Shown: positions 2,896 to 17,677 of the stretch, one piece after another
How positions within the stretch are numbered: position 1 is the first letter of the stretch
How the letters are laid out: each line of letters begins with the position of its first letter
Assembly (NCBI RefSeq): GCF_001861355.1
Contig: NZ_MASN01000018.1
Span: forward strand, 62,001-126,000
Source: Natrialba sp. SSL1
GTDB lineage: Archaea > Halobacteriota > Halobacteria > Halobacteriales > Natrialbaceae
Reading direction: 5' to 3'
Length of the DNA stretch: 64,000 bases
Position numbers and translations under genes: made by a program
The notes under the pieces: generated by a model
Told to the model about the DNA's origin: nothing
The model's database searches: none
The model's input: the letters and a program-made list of their open reading frames with translations, nothing else

Positions 2896-3678
2896 TCAGA
2901 TGTCGCGCCGGACAAAGAGCGCCACCGCGAGAGCGATCAGCGCAAGAAACCCGACCAGCAGAACGCCGGCATCGAAGAGTGCGTACTCCTCGTGGACGAG
3001 GATTGCCGTCTGATCGTAGTATCGGGTCGGTGCGGCGGCACCGATCCACTCGTAGTCAGGGTCCAGACTCGAGACGCCCTCGACTAGCCACAGGACGATG
3101 ACAGCACCCAGCGCCGCCGCTCGTGCGCTTCGGACGTGGTCAATCCCGACGGAGAGGACGAGGCCGATTCCGGCACAGACGAGCAGATAGGGAACCGAGA
3201 GGAGATGGACCATCGCGAGGGCGACAGGATTGAACGATTCCCCGATAGCGAGTGCGCTGACGTAGACGATGAGTGCGACCCCGACGTTCAGCGCAACCAG
3301 GGGAACCCAGAGCGCCCCGAGCTTCTGGAGGACGACCGATTCGCGGGAGACCGGATTCGAGAGGGTGAGATCCATCGACCGGTCCTGGATATCGCCCGCG
3401 ATCAGACCGGCGCTGACGTACGCGAAGTAGATGCCGACGAGCAGAATCCAGAAGAACGAGTAGATCTCCGCCGCGATGAAGCCCTCGATCGTGTGTAGTT
3501 CTTCGATCCCAAACAGCTCGAACATGAACCCTGGGAAGGCGTCCTCCAAGACGTCCATCTCCTCCTGGACTCCGGGGAACATCGAGAAGTAGAGCGCCGA
3601 CAGCACCGCGAAGACGGCAAGCAAGATAACTGACCCACGAACCCGCTTTCTGGATTCGATGCGGAGGATGGCCGTCAT
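2896..3678 (-). CDS. ABC-2 type transporter permease (second of two)
   Basis: Integral membrane subunit, 260 aa, of an ABC exporter or copper/antibiotic-type ABC-2 system. It has an N-terminal helix (about residues 15-33), a long extracellular loop containing the GIEELHTIEGF stretch, then five further hydrophobic segments and a terminal FVRRD. It is the same length as the upstream gene and aligns with it throughout (shared HTIEGF, FAYVSAG, SRESVVLQK, LGALWVPLVAL, PYLLVCAGIG), so the two are tandem duplicates. It starts 10 bp after the upstream permease stop and is the last gene of a three-gene operon transcribed leftward. Substrate unknown. Confidence 0.9.
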   Translation of the reverse strand: MTAILRIESRKRVRGSVILLAVFAVLSALYFSMFPGVQEEMDVLEDAFPGFMFELFGIEELHTIEGFIAAEIYSFFWILLVGIYFAYVSAGLIAGDIQDRSMDLTLSNPVSRESVVLQKLGALWVPLVALNVGVALIVYVSALAIGESFNPVALAMVHLLSVPYLLVCAGIGLVLSVGIDHVRSARAAALGAVIVLWLVEGVSSLDPDYEWIGAAAPTRYYDQTAILVHEEYALFDAGVLLVGFLALIALAVALFVRRDI

Positions 3679-3688
3679 GGTCGCCCCC

Positions 3689-4471
3689 TCAGAGATCCCT
3701 CCGGACGAAGTAGGCGGTCGCGAGGCCCACCAGGGCGAGAAAGGCTGCGAGGAGGAGTCCGGCGTCGAGGAGCGCGTACTCCTCGTGGATGAGGATCGCC
3801 GTCGGATCGTAGTACCGACTCGGCGTCACCGTACCGACCCACTCGAAATCCGGGTTCAGCTGGGCGAGGCCGTCGACGAGCCAGAGAACGAACACCAGTC
3901 CCAGCGCGGCGGCCTGGGCGGTTTCGACCCGATCGAGGACGACGGAGAAGACGATCCCGATGCCGGCACAGACGAGCAGGTACGGGACGCCGAGCACGTG
4001 GACCATCGCGAGCGCAATTGGATTGACCGACTCCCCGAGAAGGGACACACCGAGCAGGAGCGTGCCGAGCAAGGCGAGCGACAGCGCGACCAGTGGAACC
4101 CACAACGCCCCGATCTTCTGGAGGACGACCGATTCACGAGAGACGGCACTCGAGAGGGTGAGATCCATGCGTCGCGTTCGAACGTCTCTCGAGATCATGC
4201 CGGCGCTAACGTAGGCGAAGTAGATTCCAGCGAGGAGCACCCAGACGAACGGGAAGATGTACCCGCCGAGAAAACCCTCGATCGTGTGGAGCTCTTCGAC
4301 GCCGAGCAGGGCCAGTATGTACTCCGGGTACACCTCCTCGAACAGCGCTGCTTCGTCCTGGATACTCGGGAAGACGACGAGAAAGAACGCCGACAGAACG
4401 ACGAGTAGGCCGGTCAGCAACAGTGTCCCGCGCAGCAGCCGCCCCGACTCGGTGCGCAAGATTGCGGTCAT
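3689..4471 (-). CDS. ABC-2 type transporter permease (first of two)
   Basis: Membrane subunit of 260 aa with about six hydrophobic segments, paralogous to the gene immediately downstream. The ATG overlaps the stop of the ATPase gene by four bases (ATGA at 4468-4471), showing translational coupling. With the ATPase and the second permease it would form an asymmetric exporter. In known ABC-2 systems of this shape (NatAB, BcrAB, NosDFY-like) the cargo ranges from ions and antibiotics to metal cofactors; nothing here decides among these. Confidence 0.9.
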   Translation of the reverse strand: MTAILRTESGRLLRGTLLLTGLLVVLSAFFLVVFPSIQDEAALFEEVYPEYILALLGVEELHTIEGFLGGYIFPFVWVLLAGIYFAYVSAGMISRDVRTRRMDLTLSSAVSRESVVLQKIGALWVPLVALSLALLGTLLLGVSLLGESVNPIALAMVHVLGVPYLLVCAGIGIVFSVVLDRVETAQAAALGLVFVLWLVDGLAQLNPDFEWVGTVTPSRYYDPTAILIHEEYALLDAGLLLAAFLALVGLATAYFVRRDL

Positions 4472-5406
4472 CCGGTCTCCTGGGAGTCGGTCCCGTAGTA
4501 GTGTTTGAACACCTCGTCCAGCTGTGGATCGCCGATATCGACGTCCGTCACGTCGTACTGCACGAGGTGCTCGAGTAGTTCGATCACCTCTCCCGTATAG
4601 GTAAATCGAGCCGTTCGGTCGACGAGTTCGACGTCGATCATCTCCGCCGTGACGAACTGGTCCGGATCGACCGGTCTCGCGAGTTGCACTCGAACGTCCT
4701 TTCCGCCTCGCTCGAGTAACTCCTCGATGGTCTCGAGTGCAACTAGCTCGCCGTCGCGGATGATCCCGACGCGGTCACAGACGCGCTGGACTTCGCTGAG
4801 AACGTGTGAGGAGAAGAAGATGGTCGTTCCAGCGTCGCGTTCGTCCTCGAGAAAGCGGTGTAACCGATCCTGCTTGAGCGGGTCCAGACCCGATGTCGGT
4901 TCGTCCATGATCACGAGATCGGGATCGTGCATGAACGCCTGGACGATACCGAGCATCCGGCGATTCCCGTGCGAGTAGGTTTCGACTGGTTTGTCGAGCG
5001 GCGGTCGAAACAGTTCGAGCAGTTCGTCCCGTCGCTCGTCTCCCCGCAGTCGGGCGAAGTACTCGAGTACCTCGCGGCCGGTTAGCCGTTCTTCGAACCC
5101 GAGCGTGTCCGGGAGGTAGCCGACGTTGGCTTTGGCCTGGGTGAGCGCTCGTCGGTCGCGAATATCTGCACCGAGCACGGTTGCGGTGCCGGCGGTCGGC
5201 TTGAGCAGGCCGAGGAGAAGCCGGATGGTCGTCGTCTTTCCTGCGCCGTTCGGCCCGAGGTAGCCGAATATCTCGCCGGGTTCGACGGCGAAGATAACTG
5301 CGTCGTTGGCCATGACGTCGCCGTACTGCTTGGTGAGGCCGTCCAACCTGATCGTGGCTGTGTCGGCAGTGGGTTCGGTCTCGTGTGCCGCAGTCTGGCC
5401 AGACAT
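4468..5406 (-). CDS. ABC transporter ATP-binding protein
   Basis: Nucleotide-binding subunit of the exporter encoded with the two permeases, 312 aa from the ATG at 5406; the upstream in-frame ATG at 5490 adds a 28-residue extension of poor quality. Walker A is GPNGAGKTT (residues 51-59), Walker B LVIMDEP (164-170), and the switch His is H201 in FFSSHVLSE. The ABC signature reads YSHGNRR (144-150) instead of LSGGQ, related to the YSKGMKQ form of NatA/BcrA-like ATPases. A C-terminal domain of about 90 residues follows, ending DEVFKHYYG, typical of this subfamily. First gene of the operon. Confidence 0.95.
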   Translation of the reverse strand: MSGQTAAHETEPTADTATIRLDGLTKQYGDVMANDAVIFAVEPGEIFGYLGPNGAGKTTTIRLLLGLLKPTAGTATVLGADIRDRRALTQAKANVGYLPDTLGFEERLTGREVLEYFARLRGDERRDELLELFRPPLDKPVETYSHGNRRMLGIVQAFMHDPDLVIMDEPTSGLDPLKQDRLHRFLEDERDAGTTIFFSSHVLSEVQRVCDRVGIIRDGELVALETIEELLERGGKDVRVQLARPVDPDQFVTAEMIDVELVDRTARFTYTGEVIELLEHLVQYDVTDVDIGDPQLDEVFKHYYGTDSQETG

Positions 5407-5709
5407 GATTGGTCCTCTCAGGATGTGACGCGATTGGATGCCGCGACGTGCTATGCTACGCGACTCGACATCGTCACCGGGCATAAACACCTGTCTCCGC
5501 TGCTACGACTGTTCACCTTCCCAACGGAACTGAGTGGGTGAGAGGCCGTGCCGTCTGTCCCCGTTGGAACGCCGTGTCAGTTACCGTCGGCAGTCGTCGC
5601 GTAGTCGCGTAGCGGCCACTAGTGAGGGAGCAACAACTGCTGTGATGGTGGTCAAACGATCGTTTCAGTTAGCCGTACTGTTTTGTTATCGAATTGCGTC
5701 AGTGACTGC
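5407..5709. promoter_or_regulatory. Divergent intergenic region with a 12-bp palindrome
   Basis: This 303-bp gap separates the leftward ABC operon from the rightward lipoprotein gene and must carry both promoters. A perfect palindrome AAACGATCGTTT lies at 5654-5665, about 45 bp upstream of the lipoprotein ATG, just ahead of a T-rich stretch (TTTTGTTATC near 5681) at the TATA distance. I see no RNA gene or further ORF here. A palindrome of this size is expected several times by chance in 64 kb, so an operator role is only a suggestion. Confidence 0.4.
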
Positions 5710-8771: not shown

Positions 8772-10079
8772 TTACTTCGTCTTTGCTTTGTCCTTCTCGT
8801 CTTTCTTGTCGTCTTTCGCTCCTGCTTCCTCGGCTGCCTTGCCCTTTCCGTGATCTTTGCCCTTCTTGTGAGCGTCCTTCTTCCCCTTCTTCGTCGGCTT
8901 CTTCTTGATTTTAGCCACCGCTCCGGCGTTAACCAGCCCGGCACCCTGCTTTTTCGATGGGAGCCCGAGGTCGGTCGCCGTATCGGTCATGACGTAGCGG
9001 GCTTCCTTCGCGGAGTAGCCCTTCGCCATCAGCAGCGCTGCCGTTCCGGTTACGTGCGGCGTTGCGAACGATGTCCCGGTTGCAACGCCGTACTCGCCAC
9101 TTGGTAGCGTCGAAAGGATCTCGACACCCGGTGCGGCCAGTTCGATCTCGGGACCGTAGTTCGAGAACTCCGCGAAGCCATCGTCCGGCGTCGTCGCACT
9201 CACTGCGACGACTTCCTTTGCGGATGCCGGATAGGAGACCTCCTCGCCGCCGTTGCCGGCCGAGGAAACCATCAGGAGGCCACGCTTGTGCGCGAACTGA
9301 ATCGCCCGCTGGACGAGCGTCGAGTACGGGCCGCTCAGACTCATGTTGGCGACATCACAGCCTTTGATCGCAGACCAGATGATCCCCATTGCGACGTCGG
9401 ACGCGTAGCCGACACCGTCCTGGTTCAACACCTTCACGGCGTGGAGCGTCGATTTCGGTGCAACACCGACGACGCCGAAGTCGTTATCAGCGGCGGCGAT
9501 CGTTCCGGCAACGTGCGTGCCGTGGCCGTTGTCGTCAACCCAGTTGATTTCGGGGTAGCCAACCGCGCGGTTGTACGCGATACCGTCGCCGATATTCCCG
9601 GCGAGATCCGGATGGGTCGGGTCGATTCCAGTGTTGATCACCGCAACGTTCGCACCCTTCCCGCGCTTGCCCGCAGCGCTGGCTTTCCGGGCACCGATTC
9701 GTTCGACACCCCAGGGAACGACCTGTCCGCTCCCGTTGTCGGTATCATCGTTCGTATCCGAACCCGCGTAGTACGGCTGGTCCACCGCAACGAAATCGAT
9801 GTGACCGGACTCCGCGAGCGCCTCCATCTCCTCGACCGTCGACTCGACAGTGAGGGTGTTCACCGAGTGAATCGCGTGGATCACGTTGTCCGCCGCGTCC
9901 TTGGTTTGCTTTTCTCCCATCTCGGTCGCGTATCCGACGTTGAACCGACTCGGCTCATCGTCTGCGTTAGCCTGTACGCTCGATACGCTTGCGAGCCCGC
10001 CCAGAGCGATTCCCGCACCGCTGACCGCTTTGAGCACGTTCCGTCGACCGGTACCGTTGTGCGTCATTTCATCCGACAT
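8772..10079 (-). CDS. Secreted S8-family (subtilisin-like) protein with altered catalytic Asp and Lys-rich tail
   Basis: A 435-residue halolysin-type protein. It has a Tat signal (RRNVLKAVSGAG, cleaved near SVQA at residue 37), an inhibitor-I9-like propeptide (about 45-105), then the S8 domain. Catalytic His186 (NGHGTHVAGT), oxyanion Asn276 (SSAGNGG) and nucleophile Ser337 (GTSFATPH) are all present. The position of the catalytic Asp (VID[ST]G in the family) reads VINTGID, giving Asn149; the codon is AAC on the coding strand. The last 45 residues are packed with Lys (KKKPTKKGKKDAHKKGKD), unusual for an acidic halophile proteome and possibly a wall or nucleic-acid/glycan-binding tail. Proteolytic activity is therefore uncertain. 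Confidence 0.92.
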   Translation of the reverse strand: MSDEMTHNGTGRRNVLKAVSGAGIALGGLASVSSVQANADDEPSRFNVGYATEMGEKQTKDAADNVIHAIHSVNTLTVESTVEEMEALAESGHIDFVAVDQPYYAGSDTNDDTDNGSGQVVPWGVERIGARKASAAGKRGKGANVAVINTGIDPTHPDLAGNIGDGIAYNRAVGYPEINWVDDNGHGTHVAGTIAAADNDFGVVGVAPKSTLHAVKVLNQDGVGYASDVAMGIIWSAIKGCDVANMSLSGPYSTLVQRAIQFAHKRGLLMVSSAGNGGEEVSYPASAKEVVAVSATTPDDGFAEFSNYGPEIELAAPGVEILSTLPSGEYGVATGTSFATPHVTGTAALLMAKGYSAKEARYVMTDTATDLGLPSKKQGAGLVNAGAVAKIKKKPTKKGKKDAHKKGKDHGKGKAAEEAGAKDDKKDEKDKAKTK

Positions 10080-10297
10080 GACAGTCGCACCCAGAATATC
10101 GACGTAAATTGTATAATCCCGTCTACCGATCAGTATCCGAAACCTGAACTACTCGAGTACAACACTCACTTCGAATCTAACGTGCTGGCAGAATCGAGCG
10201 TCGCGTATCGAGACGATACGTTGACGTACGTGAATGTTTCGCCGTGATAACCGGCAGATACTCCACAGACGGCGGCCAGCAGCGAGGAGCGGTCCGC

Positions 10298-11715: not shown

Positions 11716-14559
11716 TTACTCGTCGGAGGTGTTGTCGAACGTGAAGCCATCGTCGGCCCCGTCACCGCCACCGTCAACCTCGCCGTCCGCGGTCTCGTTT
11801 TCGGTCTCGTCCTTATCCTCGGAGCGGTCCGAGCCGGTGTCGGCATCGCCATCGCCACCGCCATCGTCGCCATCGCCCTCGCCACCCTCGGTACCCGCAT
11901 CCGCTCTCTCCGACCCGCTGACGGGGCCGAGCGGATCGCCGCCAGTGCTCGAACTCGAGTCCAGTTCGGTCTCGCCGTCGGCAGTCTCGTCACCACCCGC
12001 CTCGACAGCGAGTGGATCTGGCTGGTCCTCGACCGTGGCTGCGTCGTGATCGTCCGCTTCGGTCGATTCGTCGGCTGACTCGAACGCCGTCTCCTCGTCG
12101 AACGTGATGCCGGCGTCCGCGTCGGTGTCCGCATCCGCATCCGCATCCGCGTCCGCATCCGCATCCGCGTCCGTGGCCACGCCGTCGCCGAGACCGAGTT
12201 CCGGCTGTCCGGCCTCGAGATCCGCGTCCGGATCGAGTTCGGCTTCCTCGACATCGGTCTCGAACCGATCGAGCGCCGCCGAGAGCTGACCGGACTGCTC
12301 GGAGAGGTTCGACGCCGAGTTCGTCACCTCCGTCAGCGCCGTCGTCTGCTCTTCGGCGGCGGCAGCGACGTTCTCCGCTTCACTCGTCGTCTCCTCGGAG
12401 ACCGTCGCCGCGTCGTCGACCATCGCGACAACCTCCTGGGTCGAGGCCGCCTGCTGTTCGGTCGCCGCTGAAATCTCCTGGACGCCGACGTTCGTCTCGC
12501 GAGCGAGTTCCGCAATCTCCTCCAGGGCATCCACTGCTTCCTGCACCTGCTGACCGGCATCGACGATATCCGAACTCGTGCCCTGCACTTCCGCGGCCGA
12601 TTGTTCCGTCCGCTCACGGATGGACTCGAGTCGGTCCTCGGCTTCGTCGGCCGCTTCGGCAACGTCTTCGGAGAGCGCCTTGACCTCCTTTGCGACGACG
12701 GAGAACCCTTCTTCGTCCTCGCCGCTGGCAGATCTGGAAGCCTCGATGTTGGCGTTCAGCGCCAGCATGTTGGTCTGGCGGGCAATTTCCGAAATCGTCG
12801 CGATCAACTGGTCGATCTGCTGGACCTCTTCCTCGAGACGTTCGATCTCGTCGACCGCACCGCCGGCCTCGGCTTCGATCTCGTCCATCGCAGCGATCGC
12901 GTCCTGGGCAGCCTCCTGCCCGTCCTGGCCGGTGGTGACCGTCCGCTCGGCGATATCTGCAACCTCGTTCGAGGAGGCGGCGATCTCCTCCGTCGTGGTC
13001 GAGAGTGCGCTCATCTCCTGGTTGACCGACTGGAGCGACTGATTCTGTCGTTCCGCGCCGTCGGAAATTTCCTGGACCGACTCGGTAACCTGCTGGGAAG
13101 CCGAGCGGACTTCCTCGCTCGAGGCGGTCACCTGCTCCGAGGCTGTCGCGACGTCGGTCGCGAACTGGCTCAATTCCGCGACGGTTTGCTCGATCTCCTC
13201 GAGCATGACGTTGAAGTCCGTCGCGATGTCGGCCATCGCCTCGTTGTCGGTCTCGGTGTCCATTCGTGCAGTGAGGTCGCCGTCGGCGGCGGCCTCCATC
13301 ACGTCGCTGTACTCGTCGGCGGTCCGCTCGAGTTCGTCGTTGATCTCGGCGATGCGTTCGCGTTCGTGTTCGGCCTCCTCGCGGGCGGTTTCGGCCTCGT
13401 CGATCGTTTCGACGAGCGAGCCACGCATGTCGTCGAACGAGTCGTAGAGCACACCGATTTCGTCGATACGGCCGGATTCGACGGGTGTCTCGTACTCGCC
13501 GTCTCTGATCGCCACCGCGCGCTCGGAGAGATCGCTCAGCGAGCGAGCGGTGTTCCGGCCGAGAATCGTCCCGAAGAGACCAATGAGTGCAACCCCGGCG
13601 AAGGTGATCAGCAGGCCGAACTGGGTCGCGCTGTTGGCAAAGCCAAGTGCGTCCGCTTCATCCGTGTGGACGAGGACGGTCCACCCGTCGCCAGTCGTGT
13701 AGTAGCCGGCGACGTACCCCTCAGGATCGAAGTTGTACGGTTCGTTCTGGAGTGTCTCGCCCGGCGGATCGTCGACACGGATCGAGCCGCGTGCTTCTTC
13801 CTGACTCGCCTCGAGCACACCGTTCGTGTCCTCGTACTCCATGAGGAACGTCTGTCCTTCTTCGCCCATGCTACCGCCGAGATAGGCGTCGTCACCGACG
13901 ATCTGTCCCTGTTCGTCGACAACAGTGACGACTGTTCCCGAGTCGGCCGCGGAGACCATCCCCGTCGAGCGCTCGGCGAGATCGAAGCTGAAGATCAACG
14001 CTCCGTCGCCGCCGTCGACGCCGATGTAATAGGAGACGACCGCCTGCTCGTCGGTCGCAAGCCCGGTCTCGTCCGGCGTCGCGTACGGCTCCGTGCGCTG
14101 GACGAGATTCGTCGAGAGGTCCTCGTTGAGTTCGTCCGTATCAGGGAACTCGAGTTCCTCCACCGTCTCGGCATCGCTACCGATACCGGTGAGAACCTCG
14201 CCGGACTCCGTGTCGACGTAGAGCGCGTTGATACGCGCTTCAGAGAGATCGTAATAGACGTTCTCGAGATAGGAGTCGATCGCCGCCACGTCACCGCTGT
14301 CAGTTACCGGCGCGTCGGCCGTCGTGGCAACCTGATTCTCGTTCTGTGTGAGCCACTCCTCGAGTGCGACACCTTCCTGATACGCTGCATCCTCTCGCTC
14401 ATCGAGCGATGTTGCCTCGACGTTATCCGTGAGTAACATCGTCGAAGCCAATCCGAGGCCACCGATCGAGAGCCCGAGGACGAGGAAGACGATACCAAAC
14501 TTCACCGCGAAACTTCGTCTGATGAACGACGGTATGAGACGCCGTCCCTTCCACACCAT
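11716..14559 (-). CDS. Transmembrane methyl-accepting transducer (Htr), first paralogue
   Basis: A 947-residue haloarchaeal chemotaxis/phototaxis-type transducer. It has helix TM1 (about 20-43), a Cache-like extracellular domain (about 44-310), TM2 (about 312-335), a HAMP domain (ARSLSDLSERAVAIRDGEYE), a second HAMP-like helix pair (DVMEAAADGDLTARM), and the long signalling coiled coil with hairpin tip IARQTNMLALNANIEASRS. The tip carries SASGEDEEGF, two residues longer than the usual GEAGEGF. After the coiled coil comes a disordered acidic tail of about 200 residues with a hexanucleotide-encoded Asp-Ala run. It signals to CheA/CheW, not encoded here. It is 190 bp downstream of a paralogue that shares almost identical HAMP and signalling DNA. 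Confidence 0.95.
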   Translation of the reverse strand: MVWKGRRLIPSFIRRSFAVKFGIVFLVLGLSIGGLGLASTMLLTDNVEATSLDEREDAAYQEGVALEEWLTQNENQVATTADAPVTDSGDVAAIDSYLENVYYDLSEARINALYVDTESGEVLTGIGSDAETVEELEFPDTDELNEDLSTNLVQRTEPYATPDETGLATDEQAVVSYYIGVDGGDGALIFSFDLAERSTGMVSAADSGTVVTVVDEQGQIVGDDAYLGGSMGEEGQTFLMEYEDTNGVLEASQEEARGSIRVDDPPGETLQNEPYNFDPEGYVAGYYTTGDGWTVLVHTDEADALGFANSATQFGLLITFAGVALIGLFGTILGRNTARSLSDLSERAVAIRDGEYETPVESGRIDEIGVLYDSFDDMRGSLVETIDEAETAREEAEHERERIAEINDELERTADEYSDVMEAAADGDLTARMDTETDNEAMADIATDFNVMLEEIEQTVAELSQFATDVATASEQVTASSEEVRSASQQVTESVQEISDGAERQNQSLQSVNQEMSALSTTTEEIAASSNEVADIAERTVTTGQDGQEAAQDAIAAMDEIEAEAGGAVDEIERLEEEVQQIDQLIATISEIARQTNMLALNANIEASRSASGEDEEGFSVVAKEVKALSEDVAEAADEAEDRLESIRERTEQSAAEVQGTSSDIVDAGQQVQEAVDALEEIAELARETNVGVQEISAATEQQAASTQEVVAMVDDAATVSEETTSEAENVAAAAEEQTTALTEVTNSASNLSEQSGQLSAALDRFETDVEEAELDPDADLEAGQPELGLGDGVATDADADADADADADADTDADAGITFDEETAFESADESTEADDHDAATVEDQPDPLAVEAGGDETADGETELDSSSSTGGDPLGPVSGSERADAGTEGGEGDGDDGGGDGDADTGSDRSEDKDETENETADGEVDGGGDGADDGFTFDNTSDE
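12123..12175. repeat. Hexanucleotide repeat coding Asp-Ala run
   Basis: On the + strand the units CATCCG and CGTCCG alternate about eight times (sense strand GAT/GAC-GC). They encode Asp-Ala repeats in the cytoplasmic tail of the transducer. Copy number could vary by replication slippage without changing frame. Confidence 0.8.
12190..13405 (-). repeat. Near-identical signalling-domain segment shared with the second Htr (copy 1)
   Basis: This segment aligns base for base, with a constant offset of 3148 and no gap, to 15338-16553 in the neighbouring transducer gene. Long patches are nearly identical even at synonymous positions (for example, about three differences across 12241-12520). They are separated by short divergent patches (for example 12525-12580). 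This mosaic pattern is typical of gene conversion. Confidence 0.85.
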
Positions 14560-14749: not shown

Positions 14750-17677
14750 TTACTCCTCGTCTGCCGTGTCACCGAACGTGAACACGTCGTCGGTGTGTGC
14801 CGCGTCTTCGCCGTCGACGTCGCGCTCGTCGTCCTCGCCGTCAGTGTCGCTCGACTCGCTCTCGGTACGCCACTCGCTGTCCGCCTCCGAACCGATGGCA
14901 GTCGCAGACTCCACATCCTCACCCTCAGCCTCACCTGCGCCGCCGATCGGTCCGAGCGGATCAACGCCGGTACTCGAGTCCGGGTCCTCGAGAGCGCTGT
15001 CGTCGGCAGGTTCGGCTGGTGTGCCAGCGTCGTCGGCGTCTGGAGCAAGCGGGTCCGATTGTTCGGTATCTTCGGCACCCGAACCAGACTGCGCAGTACC
15101 GTCGGCAAGCAGGTCAGATTCCTCGACGGGGTCGGCGAGCAGATCTGACCGCTCAGCAGGCCCACCGCGCTCGGTCTCGGTGTCGACCGGATCGAGCAGG
15201 TCATCCGTCGTAGTCGACTCGTCGACGGGTTCGAACGCTGTCTCCTCGTCGAACGTGATGCCGGTGTCTAAGTCCGTGTCCGTGTCTACGTCCCCACCCG
15301 AATCTGTGTCATCACCCACAACAGCCACGTCGTCGCCGAGATCGAGTTCTGGCTGTCCGGCCTCGAGATCCGCGTCCGGATCGAGTTCGGCCTCCTCGAC
15401 ATCGGTCTCGAACCGGTCGAGCGCCGCCGAGAGCTGACCGGACTGCTCGGAGAGGTTCGACGCCGAGTTCGTCACCTCCGTCAGCGCCGTCGTCTGCTCT
15501 TCGGCGGCGGCAGCGACGTTCTCCGCTTCACTCGTCGTCTCCTCGGAGACCGTCGCCGCGTCGTCGACCATCGCGACAACCTCCTGGGTCGAGGCCGCCT
15601 GCTGTTCGGTCGCCGCCGAAATCTCCTGGACGCCGACGTTCGTCTCGCGAGCGAGTTCCGCAATCTCCTCTAATGCCTCGACTGCCTCCTGGACGCGCTC
15701 GCCAGCGTCGACAATGTCCGAACTCGTCCCCTGCACTTCCGCGGCCGACTGTTCGGTCCGAGCGCGAATGGACTCGAGTCGGTCCTCGGCTTCGTCGGCC
15801 GCTTCGGCGACGTCTTCGGAGAGCGCCTTGACCTCCTTTGCGACGACGGAGAACCCTTCTTCGTCCTCACCGCTGGCGGAACGGGAGGCCTCGATGTTGG
15901 CGTTCAGCGCCAGCATGTTGGTCTGACGGGCGATTTCCGAAATCGTCGCGATCAACTGGTCGATCTGCTGGACCTCTTCCTCGAGACGTTCGATCTCGTC
16001 GACGGCATCGCCGGCCTCGGTTTCGATCTCGTCCATTGCCGCCATTGCACCGCGAGCGGCCTCTTGTCCCTCCTGGCCGGTCGACACCGTCTGTTCGGCG
16101 ATGTCCGCAACCTGGTTCGAGGAGGCGGCGATCTCCTCCGTCGTGGTCGAGAGCGCGCTCATCTCCTGGTTGACCGACTGGAGCGACTGATTCTGTCGTT
16201 CTGCGCCGTCGGAAATCTCCTGAATCGACTCGGTAACCTGCTGGGAAGCCGAGCGAACCTCCTCGCTCGAGGCGGTCACCTGCTCCGAGGCTGTCGCGAC
16301 GTCGCTCGCGAACTGGCTCAGTTCTGCGACGGTCTGCTCGATCTCCTCGAGCATGACGTTGAAGTCCGTCGCGATGTCGGCCATCGCCTCGTTGTCGGTA
16401 TCAGCCTCGATCCGAGCGGTGAGATCACCGTCGGCAGCGGCCTCCATTACGTCGCTGTACTCGTCGGCGGTCCGCTCGAGTTCGTCGTTGATCTCGGCGA
16501 TGCGTTCGCGCTCGCGTTCGGCCTCTTCCCGAGCGGTTTCGGCCTCGTCGATCTGTTCACGGAGTGCAACGCGCATGGAGTCGAATCCGCTGTAGAGTCG
16601 GCCGATGTTGTCGATGCGCTTGGTTTCGAGGTCGACATCGAGGTCACCGTCTTCCATCTGACCAGCTTTGTCCGTCAGGCGGTCGATCGAAACGGCCGTA
16701 TTCCGGCCGATCACCGCACCGACCATCCCGATCATGAGGACGCCGACGATCGTTGCGATGTATCCCCAGTCGTTGACCGTGTTGACGAAGCCGTAGGCCT
16801 GGTCGGTCGGTTCGTGCGTCAGGACGACCCAGTCAGTGCCGTAGACGCGGGCCGAACTGACGACGTACTCGTCGGTGTCGAACTCGTAGGTGTCGAGAAC
16901 GCTCGCGCCGTTGCCCGACACCTCCCACGTGCTCGCACCCTCCGTTCGCGCGGTGTCGAGGAGGGTGTCGTCGCCGCCGTAGGGTTCGCCGAGCGCCGCG
17001 TAGTCGTCGCCGTAGCCGGCGTTGTCGAGAACGACCTCGTTGTCGCCATCGACGACGACGGTCGCGACCTGCTCGCCGTCCTGGAACTGGCCGCCGTAGG
17101 CCTCGAGTTCAGCCGTGTAGACGATTGCCCTGTCGTCCTGTCCGGGTACGGTCAATGCGTACGTGATGACTGCGGCATCCTCACCAAGTTCGCCGTCGAG
17201 GACGTACGGTTCAGATACCCAGGGCACCTCAGCCGTTGCCTCGTCGAAGGCCGTCTCGGGAACGGACTCGAGTTCGTCCGTCGACGCGCCGCGGACATCG
17301 CTGTCGGTGCTCGCGACGATTGTGCCTTCGTCGGTGTCGGCGTAGCTGATCGAGAAGATATCGGCGTCGAGGTGTTCTTCCCAGTCGAGCAGCCGTTGTT
17401 CGATTGCGGCCGGATCGTCACTCGCGACAACGTCCGAGTGTGCGAACGTCGCGATCGTTTGTTCGTTCTGTTCGTTCCACATCTGCAGTCCCTGTGCTTC
17501 CTGTCCAGCGAAGGACGTCTGATCGGCCTGGACGCGCTCTTCGACCTCGTGTGTGATACCAGCGGTCGCCACGAACCCGATCAGCCCCACCGAAAGTCCG
17601 AGCACCAGTAACGCGATACCGAACTTGACCGCGTACCGGCGTCGGATCGCTGCAGGTACTACTCGTCGGAGATCCAT
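14750..17677 (-). CDS. Transmembrane methyl-accepting transducer (Htr), second paralogue
   Basis: A 975-residue transducer with the same architecture as its neighbour: TM1 (about 18-40), Cache-like extracellular region (about 41-300, containing FSISYADTDEGTIVAS), TM2 (near DWGYIATIVGVLMIG), HAMP (AVSIDRLTDKAGQMEDGDLD), signalling domain with tip RQTNMLALNANIEAS, and an acidic disordered tail of about 230 residues. The extracellular domains of the two Htrs differ clearly while the signalling halves are almost the same, so they probably read different stimuli into the same Che pathway. The start at 17677 has an A/T-rich TATA candidate near 17708. It is divergent from a solute-binding lipoprotein gene 270 bp away, suggesting a joint sensory unit. 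Confidence 0.95.
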   Translation of the reverse strand: MDLRRVVPAAIRRRYAVKFGIALLVLGLSVGLIGFVATAGITHEVEERVQADQTSFAGQEAQGLQMWNEQNEQTIATFAHSDVVASDDPAAIEQRLLDWEEHLDADIFSISYADTDEGTIVASTDSDVRGASTDELESVPETAFDEATAEVPWVSEPYVLDGELGEDAAVITYALTVPGQDDRAIVYTAELEAYGGQFQDGEQVATVVVDGDNEVVLDNAGYGDDYAALGEPYGGDDTLLDTARTEGASTWEVSGNGASVLDTYEFDTDEYVVSSARVYGTDWVVLTHEPTDQAYGFVNTVNDWGYIATIVGVLMIGMVGAVIGRNTAVSIDRLTDKAGQMEDGDLDVDLETKRIDNIGRLYSGFDSMRVALREQIDEAETAREEAERERERIAEINDELERTADEYSDVMEAAADGDLTARIEADTDNEAMADIATDFNVMLEEIEQTVAELSQFASDVATASEQVTASSEEVRSASQQVTESIQEISDGAERQNQSLQSVNQEMSALSTTTEEIAASSNQVADIAEQTVSTGQEGQEAARGAMAAMDEIETEAGDAVDEIERLEEEVQQIDQLIATISEIARQTNMLALNANIEASRSASGEDEEGFSVVAKEVKALSEDVAEAADEAEDRLESIRARTEQSAAEVQGTSSDIVDAGERVQEAVEALEEIAELARETNVGVQEISAATEQQAASTQEVVAMVDDAATVSEETTSEAENVAAAAEEQTTALTEVTNSASNLSEQSGQLSAALDRFETDVEEAELDPDADLEAGQPELDLGDDVAVVGDDTDSGGDVDTDTDLDTGITFDEETAFEPVDESTTTDDLLDPVDTETERGGPAERSDLLADPVEESDLLADGTAQSGSGAEDTEQSDPLAPDADDAGTPAEPADDSALEDPDSSTGVDPLGPIGGAGEAEGEDVESATAIGSEADSEWRTESESSDTDGEDDERDVDGEDAAHTDDVFTFGDTADEE
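15338..16553 (-). repeat. Near-identical signalling-domain segment shared with the first Htr (copy 2)
   Basis: Partner of 12190-13405 at a constant offset of 3148 bases. Homology drops sharply outside these limits, in the extracellular domain and in the acidic tail. Confidence 0.85.

Follow-up and report, generated by a model that had tools for sequence, protein, structure and literature searches.

Background

The aspartate of the catalytic triad is a textbook invariant of serine proteases, and its replacement by asparagine is the classic test of its role. In trypsin, the D102N mutation lowers kcat by about 10^4, with recovery to 6% of the wild-type level at pH 10.2 (PMC12018205). In subtilisin, the activity of D32A and D32G mutants can be rescued by azide or nitrite, and weakly by chloride, which fill the site (PMC7935941). 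Altered triads within the subtilase fold are also known from the Clostridioides difficile proteins CspC and CspA. CspC keeps Asp and has lost His (H to T) and Ser (S to G), the reverse of the protein described here (PMC6636752). In haloarchaea, exported S8 proteases are represented by the halolysins, Nep (Nmag_0715) and SptA. The genome paper of Natrialba magadii reports nine S8/S53 genes, including Nmag_1249, which encodes a Tat signal, and describes the Asp-His-Ser motifs as conserved throughout the set (PMC3403918).

Here we describe a secreted S8 subtilase from Natrialba sp. SSL1 in which Asn occupies the catalytic Asp position. Its gene lies at 8772..10079 on the minus strand of the window, that is, the whole 64,000-nucleotide stretch analysed (contig NZ_MASN01000018.1, positions 62,001 to 126,000), and encodes 435 amino acids, as defined by the open frame, Pfam and alignments. 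Our literature search found no paper on this gene and no biochemical data, and the Asn substitution appears to be undescribed. Judging from the sequence, the protein is a real, conserved variant of a known subtilase family.

Results

Domain architecture

The protein matches PF00082 with E=1e-56 over profile positions 1-288 of 288, above the gathering score, and belongs to the S8 family. A T7SS mycosin identity (TIGR03921) was rejected, as the score of 157 bits falls short of the cut-off of 278.75. Residues 1-42 (9954..10079, minus strand, as are all gene features below) form a Tat-type signal region beginning GTGRRNVLKAVSGAG, recognised by its twin-Arg motif. Every relative whose alignment extends to the N terminus keeps this motif; the orthologue from a Natrinema-like genome gives a weak TAT_signal match (E=0.049, below Pfam's cut-off). 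The pro-domain, residues 43-117 (9729..9953), has a subtilisin-type fold in the AlphaFold2 model, with pLDDT mostly >90. It has no match to Pfam I9 by sequence and was recognised from the structure match, which covers residues 42-117. The subtilisin catalytic domain, residues 118-389 (8913..9728), is supported by Pfam, alignment, the model and dN/dS. The remaining 46 residues, 390-435 (8775..8912), form a Lys-rich C-terminal tail (43% Lys, net charge +11), which is modelled with low confidence and is probably disordered.

The model has a mean pLDDT of 81 and fits Savinase at 1.1 A over 265 residues (Z 46.9). The best structural matches of the zymogen model are unautoprocessed pro-subtilisin E (3whi) and pro-Tk-subtilisin (2e1p), on which the predicted pro- and catalytic domains superpose together with Z of about 50. 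The N-terminal pro-domain thus matches those of pro-subtilisins, as expected for a subtilisin-type zymogen, whereas the wild-type proteins of this comparison have Asp and self-process. Relative to the Bacillus subtilisins (subtilisin BL, Savinase, BPN'; MEROPS S8A), the fold and cleft are the same at 45% identity, with His, Ser and the oxyanion Asn kept; the window protein differs by Asn149 in place of Asp32, the Tat signal and the Lys-rich tail.

Asparagine at the triad position

HMMER aligns N149 without a gap to the Asp of VAVLDTGI in subtilisin BL and other subtilisins. The superposition of the predicted model on Savinase pairs residue 118 with 1, hence 149 with 32. Both results bear out the initial annotation, which had read VINTGID at residues 147-153 with Asn for the catalytic Asp, encoded by AAC; the codon lies at 9633..9635. 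The three other residues that it had reported as retained also align as proposed with solved-structure subtilisins: His186 (9522..9524) with the catalytic His64, Asn276 (9252..9254) with the oxyanion Asn155, and Ser337 (9069..9071) with the catalytic Ser221. Accordingly, the H186GTH and GTS337 motifs and the oxyanion-hole Asn are present, while the Asp-His-Ser triad is broken by Asn at the Asp position in the window protein and in five orthologues.

It had also been proposed that the neighbouring Asp153 takes over the catalytic role. This idea finds no support, since Asp153 is the ordinary non-catalytic Asp of the VIDSGID motif, occurs in 43 of 60 Asp-bearing relatives, and therefore represents no compensating gain. 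When sites fixed in the Asn clade were compared with six Asp relatives, no compensating acidic residue specific to the clade was found. The fixed sites absent from these relatives include N149 and D219N; the latter is a further acid loss near the predicted S2 side, and N219 also occurs in some Asp-type proteins.

Distribution and origin

Using tblastn on loci from genome searches, we found the Asn in 6 of 125 genomes of the family, at 54-98% identity and in three genera: the window's genome, G003, G004, G005, G015 and G067. Within Natrialba, one subgroup, which includes N. hulunbeirensis, carries it in each of its four sampled members. The gene of G004 also stands, with the same Asn, in an independent sequence record of N. 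hulunbeirensis JCM 10989. In the public contig of this strain (L009:4980-5230), and likewise in the same gene in L010, about 100 bases of the gene are repeated after an ambiguous base (N); this looks like an assembly join, and it breaks the reading frame close to the 3' end. G005 is very probably N. magadii, G015 is inferred to be Halopiger, the same genus as G016, and a weaker pointer, plasmid similarity, makes G067 Natrinema-like.

Natrialba encodes the Asn by AAC, the Halopiger and Natrinema-like genomes by AAT, and the 60 other aligned relatives all have Asp. The alignment of homologues called for in the initial annotation thus returned a conserved Asn, not an isolated one. The same Asn in six genomes with two synonymous codons excludes a sequencing error; with three genera and purifying selection also considered, an assembly error or a recent inactivating mutation has practically no chance of being the explanation. 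A motif search of the 125 family genomes returned these six and G109, whose VVNLGFD was judged by its sequence to be a chance match. A search of 392 genomes of the order yielded no Asn members beyond those known, under the strict pattern V-[IV]-N-x-G-x-D-x-x-H-x-D, which Asn in other contexts would escape. In a tree of 29 relatives with residue 149 masked, the six Asn proteins form one side of a branch with support 88/94, and one Asp-to-Asn change suffices. The loss of the triad residue is therefore fixed in a lineage, with six members and one origin.

The Asp-type sisters come from Natronococcus sp. AD-5 (L038), G045 (L039), Halostagnicola larsenii (L040) and other Natrialba (L013-L016). They share the architecture and 46-52% identity over most of the length, and differ in having VIDTGID or VLDSGI, a strongly acidic domain, and D219 versus N219 in the Asn clade. 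The halolysins, which are likewise exported, are more distant: a Nep-like paralogue is present in the window's genome (L005), and proteins of the Nep-like type, which retain the Asp (VIDQGI), show an identity of only about 34%. Elsewhere in the order, in a genome of another family (G191, L054:187-1314), a tandem array of subtilases has a third copy of degenerate appearance, with HGTN for HGTH, GTSFAAA, and Gly aligned at the oxyanion Asn; this copy is a separate candidate pseudoprotease.

In G005, the Asn-bearing orthologue (L011) lies at 1.275 Mb and by position is probably Nmag_1249; Nmag_0714/0715 likewise agree with a pair at 0.711-0.714 Mb. For the Asn-bearing orthologue, the published claim of Asp-His-Ser in every N. 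magadii subtilisin therefore probably fails.

Locus and promoter

In Natrialba, the Asn gene has a single location, flanked by pdxS and by a small gene that adjoins a thrB-like kinase gene. In G002 and G006, the other Natrialba genomes in which this site was read, these three neighbours stand together without the subtilase, indicating that the gene was gained or lost there. Asn-type and Asp-type proteins of Natrialba occupy different loci. The neighbourhoods of the Asn gene differ among the three genera, and no conserved neighbour hinting at function was found across them. In contrast, the 40 bases 5' of the ATG are recognisably common to all three, with the TATA-like element ATACAATTT and GATATTCT, which supports orthology and a working promoter. 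In the window, the TATA-like element TTATACAATTT lies 27-37 nt 5' of the ATG (10106..10116) and is common to the Halopiger and Natrinema-like Asn orthologues.

The window also contains, on the minus strand, two tandem genes for methyl-accepting chemotaxis-type transducers (11716-14559 and 14750-17677), with near-alike signalling domains and differing sensor halves, followed by a gene for an ABC substrate-binding protein. Tandem duplicated membrane permease genes of an ABC-2 type exporter are found at 2896-4471, minus strand, with the ATPase at 4468-5490.

Selection and core changes

The catalytic domain is under purifying selection. Its dN/dS is 0.01-0.15 among the four Natrialba Asn orthologues, similar to the 0.08-0.17 of the Asp paralogue, and is lower than that of the pro-domain in nearly all Natrialba Asn pairs. 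All six Asn proteins are identical at 145 of the 262 sites of the catalytic domain, and six Asp relatives at 110, a comparison that is only indicative as the two sets differ in divergence.

As a conserved core we took the 40 positions at which conservation among Asp-type relatives is at least 90%. D149N and one further change each (V271I and G267D, respectively) are the only departures from this core in the Natrinema-like and Halopiger members, and both further sites vary in other relatives too. The Natrialba members have three to four breaks each, of which D149N, G249S and M338F are shared; one member also carries the cleft change T336S. G249S and M338F correspond to Gly127 and Met222 of subtilisin, and all three shared changes lie in the active-site cleft. 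An intact structural core with shared changes in the cleft can be read either as a remodelled active site still in use or as one that has fallen out of use and begun to decay.

Charge shift in Natrialba

The catalytic domains of the Natrialba Asn proteins have a net charge of -5 to -10 over 271 aa, compared to -26 and -29 in the Halopiger and Natrinema-like orthologues and -18 to -61 in nearly all other haloarchaeal relatives. Twenty-seven positions contribute to this shift, mostly by gain of Lys/Arg or loss of Asp/Glu, and the Lys-rich tail adds another +11 to +18 (window protein, L010, L011 and L012). The Asn proteins of Halopiger and of the Natrinema-like genome remain acidic, so the charge shift probably came later than the Asn. 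Such a loss of most of the acidic surface usual in haloarchaea, together with a Lys tail, is uncommon among their exported proteins and points to contact with a polyanion. The sole other low-acidity group seen is in L044, L045, L047 and L049, where an Arg-rich, weakly acidic upstream tandem copy stands beside a normal acidic subtilase.

Discussion

The sequences suggest that these proteins are Tat-exported haloarchaeal subtilisin zymogens with an Asn-His-Ser triad, an intact predicted pro-domain fold and cleft, and a crippled or conditional protease activity. We give this interpretation roughly even odds (a probability of about 0.5), and slightly favour it over a pure pseudoprotease. Ser337 would remain the nucleophile and His186 the base, while Asn149 could offer the His only a neutral hydrogen bond, which should lower the rate by orders of magnitude at neutral pH. 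The residual rate may suffice for self-processing of the pro-domain, which takes one turnover, as well as for extracellular cleavage that is slow or conditional. By our estimate, a rate lowered 10^4 would still allow one self-cleavage in minutes to hours. Activity should climb at alkaline pH, as it does in trypsin D102N, and in Natrialba the Lys-rich tail probably holds the protein on a polyanionic surface.

Several observations are consistent with a slow protease. His, the oxyanion Asn and Ser are kept in all six members, the core is near-intact, and purifying selection is evident. The model fits unprocessed pro-subtilisins, and the promoter block is conserved though the neighbourhoods differ. 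The precedents are trypsin D102N, which has the identical substitution, and the D32 subtilisins, altered at the same triad position; these are laboratory mutants in other backgrounds with measured activity, whereas the window protein is known from sequence. Moreover, N. magadii requires alkaline conditions (PMC3403918). On the other hand, the three shared core changes of Natrialba all lie in the cleft, which fits a loss of catalysis too; Asn does not track alkaliphily; and there are only six sequences with one origin. Natronococcus is a genus known mainly as alkaliphilic. Alkaliphily as the cause of the Asn, with Asn in alkaliphilic Natrialba and Asp in other Natrialba, is thus weakened by three facts: Asn occurs in Halopiger and Natrinema-like genomes, Asp occurs in Natronococcus sp. 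AD-5, and the Natrialba loci differ.

The strongest alternative, tentative and less probable in our judgement, is a true pseudoprotease, in which the fold is kept for binding a partner, an inhibitor or, via the Lys tail, a polyanionic surface; catalysis would be unused, and the pro-domain would stay attached or be cut by another protease. The loss of the triad Asp in all six members, the additional cleft substitutions of Natrialba (G249S, M338F and, in a single member, T336S), and the large charge shift with the Lys-rich tail all agree with this, and subtilase pseudoproteases have a precedent in CspC and CspA (PMC6636752). However, CspC loses two catalytic residues, whereas here His, Ser and the oxyanion Asn are invariant over a deep clade. 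A pseudoprotease used for binding was also the suggestion of the initial annotation. Its premise holds, as the Asn is fixed in the lineage; the step from a conserved Asn to a pseudoprotease remains tentative, because the other catalytic and oxyanion residues are invariant in six of six and the domain is under purifying selection.

Returning to the slow or conditional protease, it seems rather unlikely that this is a natural Ser-His-Asn subtilisin useful only under the conditions of the habitat (high pH, or anions at molar concentration) or for processing itself in a single turnover. A narrower form of the main reading, which we consider unlikely to a similar or slightly greater degree, is a conditional enzyme in which hydroxide at pH 9.5-11 or an anion stands in for the carboxylate. 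The hydroxide rescue of trypsin D102N and the rescue of D32G/A subtilisin by nitrite, azide and, weakly, chloride speak for it, as do hosts living in molar salt and, in N. magadii, at alkaline pH; yet Asn, unlike Gly or Ala, fills the site and leaves no obvious anion cavity, and its distribution does not follow alkaliphily. Finally, a timed zymogen in which Asn149 is deamidated to Asp after synthesis, spontaneously or enzymatically, is very improbable: its sole support is that Asn deamidation speeds up at high pH, whereas the next residue is Thr rather than Gly, making the reaction slow, and the sequence demands nothing of the kind.

Conclusions

This lineage, with at least six species in three genera, has kept Asn at the triad position over repeated speciation, under purifying selection and in waters that are hypersaline and in part alkaline. 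The question of a serine protease without Asp thereby becomes measurable on a natural enzyme. If the proteins are inactive, they would represent a new pseudoprotease family that differs cleanly, by a switch of one residue; if the conditional reading is true, they would be the evolved counterpart of the laboratory mutant trypsin D102N.
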